From assembly GCA_025774865.1 (NCBI GenBank), contig JALGZO010000552.1, positions 1 through 6,520 on the forward strand: a stretch of DNA of 6,520 nucleotides. Direction: 5' to 3'. The translations under genes and the position numbers were made by a program. Under the pieces are notes generated by a model. That model did no database searches. It had not been told where the DNA came from and worked only from the letters and a program-made list of their open reading frames with translations. This document shows positions 269 through 6,513 of the stretch, piece by piece; the stretch's first letter is position 1, and every line of letters starts with the position of its first letter. This DNA is from a bacterium. Lineage in GTDB: Bacteria > ARS69.

Positions 269-1771
269 TCACGACGTCTCCAGCACCGGCGTCCGCTCCG
301 CCCGGGACAGGAGCGCGGCATACTTGCCGAGCTTGCTTTCGTAAACACGGTGATAGTAGTCGGGCAGCGCAGGCGAGCGGCCCTCGTGAAATGCCCGGAA
401 GCCGAGATCGGTCCTCAGCATCTTCCGGGTGCGGCGAAACGCGGCGAGAAACTTCTTCATCGCGAAGCTCCGCAGCACGTGCAGCATCCGGAGCGCCGGC
501 GGCGCGTCCGTGAGCAGCCGATTCCCGATCATCGTGCCGGAGGTCATGAGGGAGTACATGTCCGCCAGCTTCTCGTAATACTCGATCGGGTGATAGTTCT
601 TGAGCGTCGTGACCAGGTAGGGGGTGTAGTAGAAGCTGAACGGCATGGATTCGAGGATCCGGCCCTCGGCGAGACAGCGGTCGTAGAGCGGCGTGCCCCC
701 GAAAGGTGTCGGGATATTGATCGTGGGCCAGACGAACGGAAGCCGCCGCATGAACTCCTGGGTCAGTTCCACGGGCTCGTCGCCGCGATCCACGTCAGTG
801 CCGAAGATGAAATTGGCCTGCAGGCCCACGACGTGATCTCGGAGCTCTTCGAAACGATCAACGAGACGCTCTAGCCTGTCCCTTCCCGCGCTCTTGCCGA
901 CCCCGACCTTCTCGGAATACTCCTGCCACGACTCGACCCCCGGCGCGACGTAGACGCAGCGCGTGTCCTTGAGACGACGCAGCCGGGGTCCCTTCAGTAT
1001 CGAGAGGGAGCTTTCCATGACATAGGGGTTGCGCGTCGGCTGCGGTACCCGTTCCATCACCGACAGGACCTGGTCGAACTTCGCCCCGAAGTTCGGGTCG
1101 TGGTACGCGACCATGACTCGAGGCCACCGGCTCGACATGAAGTTGAGGTCGGCTTCCAGGCGGTCGAGGGGAAGCAGCGCGTAGTCGTTGTTCCAGTCCA
1201 CGCAGAAGTCACAAGCATAGGGGCAGCCCACGCTACTCAACAGCGGCACCATGCTGGACCATACGGGCCTTCCCTTTGAAAAAGAGGAGGTCGCGATCTC
1301 CGGCATCCGCTCCTCGACGCTCGGGATGTCGCGCAGGGGACGGCCGCTGGTGACGATGGAGTTCCGGTCGAACGCTCCTCGGAGGAGGTCGTCGATCAAG
1401 GTCTTGTCGCATTCGAGAACGACCCAGTCGAAGAACCGCAGACAGTCCGCCGGGAAAGACCTGGCATGGGGTCCTCCGATGACCGTCAGGGTCCCTTCCC
1501 TTCGATAGAGCTTCGCCAGAGCATAGGCCATCGCGCTCGACTGCGTGTAGGTGGAGAGGAAGACGAAGTCCAGGTCGTCCGGGAGCAGCCGCTCGGGCTC
1601 GTGCTGTCCGTAGTACGTCGCGTAGGCCACCTCGTGGCCGAGCTGACGGCACCACACCGACACCGCTTGAGGAACGATGCCCGCGTACTGCTTCTTCAGA
1701 ACTCCGCGGTAGGCGAAGTTGATCCAGGTCCGTGGGGAGTCGACGAGGATATCGAGAACGCCGATCTTCAT
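269..1771 (-). CDS. Radical SAM protein with B12-binding-like N-terminal domain
   Basis: This 500-residue protein resembles the cobalamin-binding-domain radical SAM class (COG1032, BchE/MiaB-like superfamily). Residues 1-135 form a Rossmann-like domain, with the characteristic VIGGPHA stretch near 97-103. The iron-sulfur cluster motif CPYACDFC (CxxxCxxC, Cys183, Cys187, Cys190) opens the radical SAM barrel. Further family landmarks are YHDPNFG (223-229), GVESWQEYSEKVG (278-290) and PTPFGGTPLYD (355-364). Residues 415-500 form a basic, helical C-terminal extension. Such enzymes cleave S-adenosylmethionine to a 5'-deoxyadenosyl radical and often modify lipids, cofactors or natural products; the substrate here cannot be told. 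The N-domain lacks the DxHxxG histidine that ligates cobalamin, so B12 may bind base-off without His, or not at all. A GTG five codons upstream (1786) is an alternative start. The ATG at 1771 is preferred because the protein then begins MKIGVLDIL, the usual first beta strand, with a weak GAGAG upstream. Confidence 0.9.
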   Translation of the reverse strand: MKIGVLDILVDSPRTWINFAYRGVLKKQYAGIVPQAVSVWCRQLGHEVAYATYYGQHEPERLLPDDLDFVFLSTYTQSSAMAYALAKLYRREGTLTVIGGPHARSFPADCLRFFDWVVLECDKTLIDDLLRGAFDRNSIVTSGRPLRDIPSVEERMPEIATSSFSKGRPVWSSMVPLLSSVGCPYACDFCVDWNNDYALLPLDRLEADLNFMSSRWPRVMVAYHDPNFGAKFDQVLSVMERVPQPTRNPYVMESSLSILKGPRLRRLKDTRCVYVAPGVESWQEYSEKVGVGKSAGRDRLERLVDRFEELRDHVVGLQANFIFGTDVDRGDEPVELTQEFMRRLPFVWPTINIPTPFGGTPLYDRCLAEGRILESMPFSFYYTPYLVTTLKNYHPIEYYEKLADMYSLMTSGTMIGNRLLTDAPPALRMLHVLRSFAMKKFLAAFRRTRKMLRTDLGFRAFHEGRSPALPDYYHRVYESKLGKYAALLSRAERTPVLETS

Positions 1772-1838
1772 GCTGGAAGCTCTCACGGACTCGACTCGGA
1801 CGGCATCGCTCCTGCCGGCCGTCCGCTACGAGAACACG

Positions 1839-1868
1839 AGTCTAGGACAACCGCTTCCTCGCGGTCAA
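1839..1868 (-). promoter_or_regulatory. Candidate sigma70 promoter for the radical SAM gene
   Basis: On the minus strand, TTGACC (complement of 1863-1868) and TAGACT (complement of 1839-1844) are separated by 18 bp. They match the -35 consensus at 5 of 6 positions and the -10 consensus at 4 of 6. Transcription would start near 1832, about 60 bp before the ATG at 1771. The element lies in the 111-bp gap after the phosphatase gene, which is where a separate promoter would be expected. It was found by eye, so a chance match is possible. Confidence 0.42.
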
Positions 1869-1882
1869 CGTCGCGCTTGCTG

Positions 1883-3406
1883 TCAGGGTGCCGCTTCGAC
1901 TTTGCAGATGACGACGGTCATGTCGTCCGTCTGGGGTCGCTTCGTCTCGAAAGTCCTCGCCGCTCCGTACAGACCCTGCACGATGTGGGAAGCAGAATCG
2001 TGGCGATGGTCCTTGATGAACTTCAGCAACCTGGCTTCGCCAAACGCGTTTCCGTCGAGCTCTCCGATTTCCGTGATGCCGTCGGTCAACAGAATCACGG
2101 TCTCCCCGGGCTCCAGCGAGAGGGTCGGGCCGGACGGGAAGTCACGTCCTGCGAACATCCCCAGAGGGATCCCGGTGCTTTGGAGGCGCTCTCGGACCTC
2201 GCCGCCGCGGTCAAGCAAATAGCCCGTCGAGTGTCCGGCACTGGCGTACGCCAGCGTTCGGGCACGCGGGTCGAGCCGCGCAATCAACAGCGTCAGATAG
2301 TCCTTGACGTCCGAATCGACGACGAGTATCTCGTTGAGCCGGCGAAGGAGCTCGCCGGCGTCAAAGCACGAAAGGGCCAGAGAGCGCAGATAAGCGCGCG
2401 CCTGGGCCATGAGAAGCGAGGGGCCAAGCCCGTGGCCGCAGACGTCGGCGACGACAAGTCCGAGGCAATCGCCGGGCATCGGGAGGAAGTCGAACAGGTC
2501 GCCACACAGGGTGGCGGCCGGAAAGGCGGCGCCGGCGATGTCGAAACCCGGCAGTCGGGGAGCGCTTTTCGGATACAGCCTTTGCTGCACTTCCTGCGCG
2601 ACGTCCATTTCCACCTGCAGTTGCTCGTTTCGCAGGCGCTCGGTGACGTCTTTCAGCACGGATACGAGAAAGGCGTTCCGGCCATCGGCCCCTCGGACCG
2701 GCGAGATCGTTTGCTCCGCGTGAAACAGATTCCCGTTCTTCTTTCTGTTGACCAGGGTCCCGCGAAAGACGCTGCCACCTAGCACCGTGCTCCACAGGTC
2801 TTGATAGAATCGAGCGTCGTGCTCGCCGGACTTGAGGAGACGTGGAGTCTGCCCGACGATCTCCTCTCGCGTGTAACCGGTCATCTGCTCGAAACCCGGA
2901 TTGACGTACTCGATGGTGCCTTTCATATCGGTGATCAAGATCGCGTCGGCGGTTTGCTCCACGGCTCTGGACAATCTCTCGGCGTCCTCGAGGGACCGCT
3001 TCTGGGCGGTGATGTCACGGAAGACCACCACGCCGCCGGACACGGTGCCGTCGTCGCCCCGCCAGGGAGCCGCGCTCGCGCTGATCCAGACGCCGGGATC
3101 CACGTGCTCGTTCCGAACAAAGATCTCGACGTCCGTCACTACCTCCCCGCGAAGCGCCCGGGCGAGAGGCAGCTGATCGGAGGGGAACGGTGTCACGGCG
3201 TCCGCGAGATAGCAGCCGTAGACCCGTGTCCGGTCATCCGGGCCCACGGCGAGCGCACCCAGACCGAGGATCCGCTGCGCAGCCGCGTTGAAACACAGGA
3301 TTCGCCCGTTCCGATCGGAGAACATGAACCCATCGGGAAGGTCCTGGATCACGGACTGCAGGAGTGCTTCGGGGTTCGCGAGGCGAGAGGGCATCAGTCG
3401 TGACAT
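1883..3406 (-). CDS. PAS-PAS-SpoIIE (PP2C-type) serine phosphatase, RsbU-like
   Basis: This 507-residue cytoplasmic signalling protein has no membrane segment. PAS domain 1 spans about 11-130 (DGFMFSDRNGRILCFN...). PAS domain 2 spans about 145-255 and has the classic IEYVNPGFEQMTGYTREEI core. A short helical linker (253-280, ending AQEVQQRLYP, as in RsbU proteins) leads to the SpoIIE/PP2C phosphatase domain (285-503). The manganese-binding and catalytic motifs are all present: GDLFDF (Asp303), ADVCGHG (Asp321), LLTDGITE (Asp442) and TDDMTVVI (Asp494, Asp495). Family members dephosphorylate a STAS anti-anti-sigma factor, or a similar partner, in response to the sensory domain. No STAS protein or HATPase kinase is encoded nearby, so the target is unknown. 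The start is set at ATG 3406, which has AAGAGG 11 nt upstream. The GTG at 3433 has no ribosome binding site and would add nine residues. Confidence 0.92.
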   Translation of the reverse strand: MSRLMPSRLANPEALLQSVIQDLPDGFMFSDRNGRILCFNAAAQRILGLGALAVGPDDRTRVYGCYLADAVTPFPSDQLPLARALRGEVVTDVEIFVRNEHVDPGVWISASAAPWRGDDGTVSGGVVVFRDITAQKRSLEDAERLSRAVEQTADAILITDMKGTIEYVNPGFEQMTGYTREEIVGQTPRLLKSGEHDARFYQDLWSTVLGGSVFRGTLVNRKKNGNLFHAEQTISPVRGADGRNAFLVSVLKDVTERLRNEQLQVEMDVAQEVQQRLYPKSAPRLPGFDIAGAAFPAATLCGDLFDFLPMPGDCLGLVVADVCGHGLGPSLLMAQARAYLRSLALSCFDAGELLRRLNEILVVDSDVKDYLTLLIARLDPRARTLAYASAGHSTGYLLDRGGEVRERLQSTGIPLGMFAGRDFPSGPTLSLEPGETVILLTDGITEIGELDGNAFGEARLLKFIKDHRHDSASHIVQGLYGAARTFETKRPQTDDMTVVICKVEAAP

Positions 3407-3417
3407 GCTTGTTGCAT

Positions 3418-3423
3418 CCTCTT
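3418..3423 (-). promoter_or_regulatory. Ribosome binding site deciding the phosphatase start
   Basis: AAGAGG on the minus strand lies 11 nt upstream of ATG 3406. Nothing similar precedes the in-frame GTG at 3433, so this site supports the ATG as the start. Confidence 0.6.
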
Positions 3424-3446
3424 GATGAGCCACGGGTTTTTAGATG

Positions 3447-3462
3447 TGCGAGCGCGGTGCCC
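3447..3462 (-). promoter_or_regulatory. Candidate sigma54 (-24/-12) promoter of the phosphatase gene
   Basis: On the minus strand the sequence GGGCACC-GCGC-TCGCA resembles the sigma54 consensus TGGCACG-N4-TTGCA. The invariant GG and GC dinucleotides have the required 10-bp spacing. It overlaps the last codon of the 114-residue gene. Transcription would begin near 3435, leaving about 30 nt that hold the AAGAGG site before ATG 3406, a geometry that fits. In GC-rich DNA such a match can arise by chance, and no activator binding site was recognised. Confidence 0.3.
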
Positions 3463-3806
3463 TACCGATCGTGCAACACGGGGTGCTGCGGCCGAGGCCG
3501 TGGGCTGAGCGCGCGACGGGTGGCGGGGCCCCAGTCCGTGAGACGATCGAAGAATCTCGTGTAGCGGCGCTTGAGGATCGGGGCGACCCGCAGGTGTTCG
3601 ATGTCGAGGGACTGCCCACCTCGAGTGACTTCATTACAACGCTTCATGAATGTGGCCAGCGGTACGAACCGCGCTTCGGATTGCTGATGATACTTGACCC
3701 TCACGTGGGAGCGGCTCAGGTTTCGACGGATGTTGTCAACCACGGAGCCGAACACCGCCTTCGACGGATCGACGAGCCACTCGGGCTTGCTACGTCTCCG
3801 GAACAT
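3462..3806 (-). CDS. Conserved-looking small protein of unknown function (114 aa)
   Basis: I do not recognise the family. The protein is basic and soluble, without a signal peptide or membrane segment. It reads as a plausible folded domain for residues 1-90 (MFRRRSKPEWLVD..., then FGSVVDNIRRNLSRSHVRVKY, LATFMKRCNEV and APILKRRYTRFFDRL), followed by an Arg/Pro-rich tail. Codon use has the high third-position GC of its neighbours, which supports this frame over the overlapping open frame on the plus strand. An AAGGAG site (complement of 3819-3824) lies 12 nt before the ATG. The gene begins 38 bp after the groEL stop and is probably co-transcribed with groEL. The single-Cys content and many Arg/Lys residues would allow nucleic-acid or partner binding, but nothing specific supports either. 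Confidence 0.68.
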   Translation of the reverse strand: MFRRRSKPEWLVDPSKAVFGSVVDNIRRNLSRSHVRVKYHQQSEARFVPLATFMKRCNEVTRGGQSLDIEHLRVAPILKRRYTRFFDRLTDWGPATRRALSPRPRPQHPVLHDR

Positions 3807-3818
3807 GTCGTGTCATCT

Positions 3819-3824
3819 CTCCTT
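3819..3824 (-). promoter_or_regulatory. Ribosome binding site of the 114-residue gene
   Basis: AAGGAG on the minus strand lies 12 nt before ATG 3806, a rather long spacing. A second ATG (3816), only 2 nt after the site and in another frame, opens an eight-codon ORF (MTRHVPET) that overlaps the real start. That overlap could lower or couple initiation. Confidence 0.55.
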
Positions 3825-3844
3825 GGTTGCGAACGAGGTGCGCG

Positions 3845-5524
<1,680 letters not shown>

Positions 5525-5541: not shown

Positions 5542-6513
5542 CTACCCCTCGTTCGGAGTACAACCGTCTCCCCGCCTCCGATAACCGGTGTCGCAGCGCC
5601 AGTCGTTTCCCCTGTAACCGAGGCGGGCGTTCGCCGGCACCACAAGAGCCACGCACGAGTCACCGCTCTTCTCGAAACCTCGCTCGCACGCCCAGTCGCG
5701 TCCCGAGGAGGCGAGGTAGCCATTCAAGGGCACGGCGATCGCGACGCACGAGCCGTTGCTCTTCTCGTAACCACGATTGCATTCCCAGTAGCGTCCCGAA
5801 GATGCGAGGTGGGCTTCCCGAGGTATCTCGAGAGCCACGCACGACGCGCCGACTTTGTGAAATCCCCGATCGCAGTCCCAGCGATCTCCGGAAGATCCGA
5901 GATAGGCGTTCGCGGGCACCTCGACGGCCACGCATGACTGGGCGGCTCTCCGGTAACCTCGATTGCATTCCCAGTCGTGCCCCCGGGAATCCAGGAAGGC
6001 ATGGGCAGGTATTTCGACCACGGCGCATGCGTTGTCGCCAACCGCGTCCGTAGGAGTCCATCGCATAAGCGTTTGCGGGTAGCTTGATCGCGACGCATGA
6101 CTCGTCGACCCGGGTGTAGCCCCGATCGCACTCCCAGCCGCTCCCGCGGGAATCCAGGAAGGCGTTGGTTGGGACGTCGACTTCCGAGCAGGCCTCATTC
6201 GCCCTCCGAAACCCTCGGCGCACTCCCAACCGCTCCCGCGGGAATCCAGGAAGGCGTTGGGAGGTACGTCGATTTCCGAGCAGGCCTCGTTCACCTTCCG
6301 AAACCCTCGGTTGCACTCCCATCTTTCCCCGAAGGAATCCAGATGAGCATTCGTCGGCACCTTGACCGGATCCGCCTGTGCGGCGCCGACGGTGGGTGCC
6401 ATCGCGAGTAGCAGCACCACGAGCATCAGAGGAACCAGCGACCGACAGGGGCCGGCTCGTCTTGACGAGTATCTTCTCTTGATGGTTTCTCCCTGGGACT
6501 GGCGCGCAAGCAT
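5542..6513 (-). CDS. Secreted cysteine-repeat protein with an out-of-frame central segment
   Basis: The 323-codon ORF begins with a basic stretch (KRRYSSRR) and a hydrophobic core (about 27-44). It ends in a signal-peptidase-I-like site (GAAQA before Asp48), so export across the inner membrane is expected. Then come nine tandem units of about 31 residues with the pattern [VIL]P-x-N-A-x-L-x-S-x-G-x-x-W-x-C-x-R-G-[FY]-x-[RK]-x4-C-V-A-[IVL]. Each unit has two Cys, which probably form a disulfide outside the cytoplasm. I cannot name the family, and the function is unknown; binding or a structural role outside the cell is a guess. Residues about 99-158 break the pattern because of a 1-bp deletion in unit 2 and a 26-bp deletion in unit 4, which together restore the frame. 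The ATG at 6511-6513 is 7 bp from the window edge, so a longer N-terminus cannot be excluded. Calling it an active gene is uncertain; it could be a pseudogene or affected by assembly error. Confidence 0.72.
   Translation of the reverse strand: MLARQSQGETIKRRYSSRRAGPCRSLVPLMLVVLLLAMAPTVGAAQADPVKVPTNAHLDSFGERWECNRGFRKVNEACSEIDVPPNAFLDSRGSGWECAEGFGGRMRPARKSTSQPTPSWIPAGAAGSAIGATPGSTSHASRSSYPQTLMRWTPTDAVGDNACAVVEIPAHAFLDSRGHDWECNRGYRRAAQSCVAVEVPANAYLGSSGDRWDCDRGFHKVGASCVALEIPREAHLASSGRYWECNRGYEKSNGSCVAIAVPLNGYLASSGRDWACERGFEKSGDSCVALVVPANARLGYRGNDWRCDTGYRRRGDGCTPNEG
6038..6219 (-). other. Frame-shifted segment between two compensating deletions
   Basis: Between Cys98 of the ORF (codon 6222-6220) and the unit-4 tryptophan codon (6040-6038), the repeat pattern is found only in the next frame. 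At the right border, unit 2 reads CTCGG-CG-CACTCCC where unit 1 reads CTCGG-TTG-CACTCCC (plus strand), so one base is missing. At the left border, only 10 nt (6028-6037) separate the Trp and Cys codons of unit 4, where other units have 36. Losses of 1 and 26 bp total 27 bp, so downstream units are read correctly. No stop codon arises in the shifted stretch. Confidence 0.8.
6138..6168. repeat. 31-bp direct repeat, copy in unit 3
   Basis: These 31 bp are identical to 6230-6260, in unit 2. The copies are 92 bp apart rather than 93 because of the 1-bp deletion. With one mismatch the identity extends further to the left (GCACTCCC...). The match marks a recent duplication, or gene conversion, between units 2 and 3. 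Confidence 0.88.
6230..6260. repeat. 31-bp direct repeat, copy in unit 2
   Basis: This is the partner of the copy at 6138-6168. It encodes the NAFLDSRGSG portion of the unit, which is identical in both proteins. Such near-identical tandem copies are prone to slippage and to assembly collapse, which bears on the indels next to them. Confidence 0.88.

Follow-up and report, generated by a model that had tools for sequence, protein, structure and literature searches.

Does the cysteine-repeat gene on this contig carry two genuine deletions that cancel each other in the reading frame, or did the deletions arise when the genome was assembled? The window analysed here is the entire contig C556 (6520 bp) of metagenome bin G000. 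Its minus strand carries, at 5542..6513, an ORF for a putatively secreted cysteine-repeat protein, 323 aa long in this assembly, in which a hydrophobic N-terminus is followed by nine units; one of the nine is hidden and two are split in the assembled sequence. If the deletions were real, a compensated frameshift, rarely met in bacteria, would have put a linker in place of disulfide units and left the old frame readable; a new protein segment would have been taken from the other frame of an old gene and caught in the act. If they are an artefact, bin G000, and apparently also its sister bin G002, carries short frame-breaking skips, and for this reason broken genes, odd ORFs and lost catalytic loops (such as that of a kinase without DFG) called from G000 need to be treated with caution.

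The units are arranged in tandem, are about 31 aa long and follow the pattern P-x-N-A-...-W-x-C-x-R-G-[FY]-...-C; the hydrophobic segment preceding unit 1, LVPLMLVVLLLAMA, may be an export signal. Trp-to-Trp lengths on the minus strand were 93 bp for unit 1, 92 bp for unit 2, 96 bp for unit 3 (itself 3 bp over the usual 93), 67 bp for unit 4 and 93 bp for each of units 5–8. With lengths of 92 and 67 against 93 bp, the original prediction of a one-base shortfall in unit 2 and a 26-bp shortfall in unit 4 was borne out, as was its reading that the sum of 27 bp, a multiple of three, restores the frame after about 60 residues: the unit pattern is left at the junction 6219/6218 and regained near 6040–6037, codons ~99–158 are read out of frame, and units 5–9 follow in the frame of the ORF. 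The approximately 60 out-of-frame codons (6039..6219, minus strand) encode a Cys-free stretch that is rich in Ser, Pro, Ala and Arg and predicted to be disordered, and at the junction of the 26-bp shortfall (6037..6040, minus strand) the first Cys half of unit 4 is missing. About three Cys pairs had been claimed to be lost; counting gave four Cys, two pairs' worth, with C98 and C163 as leftover partners and 14 Cys remaining beyond the hydrophobic N-terminus.

A unit profile, trained solely on four other genomes (L006–L009, 29 units), was scanned over all three frames. The ORF frame was found to hold unit 1 and half of unit 2, the −1 frame the remainder of unit 2 (12.1 bits), the whole of unit 3 (53.7 bits) and the beginning of unit 4 (16.9 bits), and the ORF frame again units 5–9. 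Hidden unit 3 (PTNAFLDSRGSGWECDRGYTRVDESCVAIKL; 6080..6172, minus strand, −1 frame) is undamaged, and its 53.7 bits in context were the top single-unit score in the window. Complete window units, the hidden one included, scored ~45–54 bits and display the family pattern P-x-[NH]-[AG]-...-W-x-C-x3-[FY]-...-C; the placement of all units in one reading frame, which is the rule in the family, does not extend to the window gene as assembled, with the second half of unit 2, unit 3 and the first half of unit 4 lying in −1. GC content by codon position shifts phase across the out-of-frame stretch. That this stretch contains no stop codon is uninformative, because 14% of 59-codon windows in the neighbouring genes are stop-free in that frame and the repeat gene's own +1 frame is also open, over codons 107–262 (156 codons).

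Just past the point where the frame is lost, the ORF frame contains a heptamer of the form X XXY YYZ (G GGT TTC; 6214–6208, minus strand), from which a −1 slip would lead into the hidden frame. That the hidden frame is reached by such programmed or slippage recoding is nevertheless extremely improbable: the heptamer is probably a by-product of the conserved Arg-Gly-Phe codons read one base off, no homologue uses it, no further sign of recoding was found, and a second, opposite shift would be needed in unit 4, failing which units 5–9 would be lost.

Scored alone, hidden unit 3 reached 60.6 bits, within a range of 46.9–61.9 bits for the family units used in training, and substitutions simulated on the unit profile cost ~2.5 bits for one, ~10 bits for four and ~20 bits for eight. 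Because 60.6 bits is near the top of the family range and ~2.5 bits are lost per neutral substitution, hidden unit 3 has taken about one neutral substitution at most; the same figures uphold the argument, made from the undamaged unit in the hidden frame, that the change is recent. The site of the first frame step was then found to be more than a place where a base is lacking. Two adjoining 92-bp copies (6219..6310, minus strand, the remainder of unit 1 with the beginning of unit 2; and 6127..6218, minus strand, the remainder of unit 2 with the beginning of unit 3) are identical at 84 of 92 positions (91%), and the missing base of unit 2 coincides exactly with their junction at 6219/6218. To call unit 2 one base short is thus correct as to its length of 92 bp and incomplete as to the site, which is a tandem-copy junction. 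The left flank of the junction (TGGGAGTGCG) reads like the beginning of unit 3, the right flank (CCGAGGG) like unit 1; taken in the unit frame, the eight differences between the copies comprise four synonymous and four conservative changes (P = 0.15 against neutrality).

An origin by duplication, in which 92 bp instead of 93 bp were copied so that unit 2 was made out of frame and the 26-bp deletion compensated later, would agree with copies that are exactly adjacent at a period of 92 bp and with flanks that match the start of unit 3 and unit 1, and one event would account for both the duplication and the missing base. The copies have, however, since diverged at 8 of 92 sites, yet hidden unit 3 is undecayed, which dates the frame step to long after the duplication. 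On the strength of the undecayed unit the 92-bp duplication was rejected as the source of the frame step, and this course of events is considered very improbable. With almost no decay in unit 3 while the copies differ at 8 of 92 positions, the loss of frame is either extremely recent or absent in the living organism.

Homologues of the repeat protein were collected from other genomes. Twelve distinct ones were found, all intact members being in frame with unit lengths that vary only by whole codons, and each unit carrying two Cys. They came from alphaproteobacterial genomes, from Rhizomicrobium electricum and six others among 96 searched genomes of its order, and from Pseudohongiella, which has a short paralogue besides two full ones. 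In a contig scan across genomes, four true relatives came up, besides a match by chance (L010). No relative of the repeat gene was found on viral contigs, and no homologue in four other genomes of the family or phylum. The repeat proteins of L006–L009 and L020–L033 (Rhizomicrobium relatives, other Alphaproteobacteria and Pseudohongiella) share with the window protein units of the form P-x-N-A-x5-14-W-x-C-x-R-G-[FY]-x5-13-C with two Cys each and the hydrophobic N-terminal segment, and most of them have five to eight units of ~31–40 residues; they are wholly in frame, whereas the window protein as assembled is not. In one of them (L033, genome G134) consecutive units are nearly identical (SLDHFGSSWVCN.GF/Y.RAGSECLKVVPPENA), as in a recently amplified array.

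Resemblance to EGF-like domains was weak at the sequence level: the whole window protein scored 36.5 bits with PF12946 (EGF_MSP1_1; cut-off 27), with no single stretch passing on its own. In Foldseek the top structural matches were EGF and TNFR-type rods, the best being 6pog_B (NELL2 EGF1-6; E 0.0017, TM 0.28); the window protein differs from EGF-like domains in having two Cys per unit and no PDB match at E < 0.001. In the AlphaFold model, each of the five intact window units is built of four short strands, and their mean pLDDT is 91.6. Behind the assembled sequence there is probably a gene for an in-frame array of ~31-residue units, a secreted, EGF-like, two-Cys repeat rod, and its role is most likely that of an exported, disulfide-stapled binding or spacer rod. 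When the protein was modelled as assembled, residues 108–159 fell below a pLDDT of 50 and the flanking blocks of units reached ~83–96; judged from these models, genuine indels would leave a physically plausible protein.

A real and very recent compensating pair, in which the frame was lost through an indel in unit 2 and regained through the 26-bp deletion in unit 4, is a rather unlikely reading. Such a protein would consist of unit 1 and units 5–9 as rigid parts joined by a flexible, Cys-free linker of ~60 residues, and C98 (unit 2) and C163 (unit 4) could pair, the number of Cys being even. In favour of the pair are a total shortfall of 27 bp, a regained frame, an open ORF with its 14 Cys, and models with well-formed units on either side of a disordered middle; natural pairs of this kind are also documented (PMC8935012; PMC8127213). 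In a survey of vertebrates and insects, 6 of 624 candidate pairs survived stringent quality filters (Biba et al. 2022, PMC8935012), and long compensating indels were deemed suspect there on the ground that assembly artefacts are less sensitive to length. The window locus shares with those compensatory pairs two nearby non-triplet indels, a restored frame and a replaced middle; it differs in that the stringent pairs are supported across species, and the present case includes a 26-bp deletion and is seen in one assembled sequence alone. Against a real pair, the two events would both have to happen while 93 bp of sequence gathered only about one neutral substitution, the deletion in unit 4 is long and of a kind seldom fixed, and the four family genomes lack the repeat gene, no relative with the locus being among the genomes compared. 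We hold it rather unlikely, by a slightly lower estimate, that a genuine double frameshift made two disulfide units into a flexible, Cys-free hinge of 60 residues with the array otherwise intact.

The absence of the gene from the four other family genomes, where it is hence dispensable, speaks for a different reading, namely a real pseudogene at the beginning of its decay, in which the indels are genuine and the frame was restored by accident, as would happen with about one-third of random second indels. Substitution decay is, however, found nowhere in the gene, and the scores of units 5–8 and of the hidden unit are those of intact family members; despite the presence of other broken genes in the bin (see below), we regard incipient decay as improbable.

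Contigs of bin G000 (552 kb), G002 (631 kb) and G003 (400 kb), all of the same family, were compared with each other's ORFs. A break was scored where one homologous ORF was matched in two frames at a single point, and candidates were then inspected. In G000, four credible breaks, with skips of ~20–75 nt, were found in ~128 kb of comparable coding sequence, or roughly one in every 30 kb; each lies in a conserved gene of non-repeat type. They affect a YyaL/DUF255-like protein (C355, L086, ~9126–9136; ~20 nt missing), a TolC-like protein (C468, L121, ~7797–7819; several tens of nt missing), a Ser/Thr kinase left without its DFG/activation loop (C5, L041, ~3929–3937; ~74 nt missing) and a C-terminal sorting domain (C75, L078, ~348–350; ~23 nt missing); these product names were assigned from motifs in the present analysis. 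An independent search for RND pumps (PF00873) revealed two further G000 genes broken alike, one on C52 (gene 6838–9769, broken at 7013–7032) and one on C679 (gene 1388–4971, broken between 4372 and 4366), both read from the match table only; the stretch on C679 is a single unbroken match in all four relatives. No internal break was seen in the PF00501 genes of G000. Four further candidates were rejected: L090, L101 and L161 resemble pairs of ORFs in antisense, and L037 matches a query that two G003 sites also match, probably reflecting gene arrangement.

In G003, a 100%-complete relative, no credible break was found in 102 kb, the candidates there being of low identity or antisense; the sole exception, from the PF00873 search, was a short RND remnant at C8. 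G002 yielded one credible break, and many other sites in that bin were short repeat matches and were discarded. The break lies in a glycosyltransferase-like gene on C1 (L103, ~19720), in which 43 bp are absent compared with C14 (L141, 1–552); the two contigs agree fully over the 114 bp that lead up to the skip, and identity falls to ~93% immediately beyond it. Because of this drop in identity, C1 appears to switch haplotype exactly at the 43-bp skip. In G000, the ends of C466 (L119, 1–565) and C474 (L127, 9656–10220) overlap at 98% identity, which points to strain variants being mixed in the bin. G000 consists of 785 contigs (4.72 Mb; completeness 92.65%, contamination 8.3%), and this fragmentation suggests a short-read origin. 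Skips are not marked by runs of N, of which one (6 N) was met in the G000 contigs read. Like skips occur in G000 in genes where they must do harm, which counts further against a real pair at the repeat locus.

Since the skips recur in genes of G000, strain variants are present and the skip in G002 falls at a haplotype switch, we consider it probable, though well short of certain, that the cancelling deletions arose as a local fault in assembling a metagenome bin in which strains are mixed. Of the three options first offered (a gene still intact but with its middle replaced, a gene in decay, or a sequencing or assembly fault), the third is thus favoured by weighing rather than by proof. In joining reads across GC-rich repeats, the assembler would have passed over some tens of bases in unit 4 and, at 6219/6218, joined two adjacent unit copies out of register by one base, or by a unit plus one base; that the two skips cancel each other would be chance. 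At the measured rate (4 frame-changing skips per 128 kb), ~0.9–1.6 genes with two cancelling skips are expected by chance per bin, and because of this the cancelling pair requires no special cause.

Local assembly skips in fragmented, strain-mixed bins, as exemplified by C355, C468, C5, C75, C52 and C679 of G000 and C1 of G002, have in common with the window a loss of ~20–100 bp at a single point of a gene that is sound elsewhere. The window differs in that two steps fall in one gene, within a tandem repeat, and cancel, and in that one step amounts to a net single base. This last difference stands against an assembly fault, for the other skips are of tens of bases and a one-base shortfall fits only as a unit plus one base; against it, too, the remaining long ORFs on the contig are intact. 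We infer that the skips are assembly faults instead of mutations and that the join at 6219/6218 shares its cause with the skip in unit 4; part of the surveyed breaks could be real pseudogenes, and the comparison of bins is small (4 + 2 events in G000, 1 in G002, none or one remnant in G003). A literature search on local metagenome misassembly gave no usable comparison.

The further long ORFs of the contig, all undamaged, encode GroEL, a PAS/SpoIIE phosphatase and a B12 radical SAM protein. The intact groEL (3845..5464, minus strand) lies downstream of the repeat gene, with 77 bp between the end of the repeat ORF and the start of groEL at 5464; groES was not found on the contig. The window contig may be accessory or mis-binned. 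Like the repeat gene, the radical SAM gene has no homologue in the four other family genomes, and the best match of the PAS/SpoIIE phosphatase there is 38%. The groEL at 3845–5464 is a third, divergent copy in bin G000, with at most 64% identity to any groEL of the family; the other copies of the bin, on C228 and C462, are 82–83% identical to those of its relatives.
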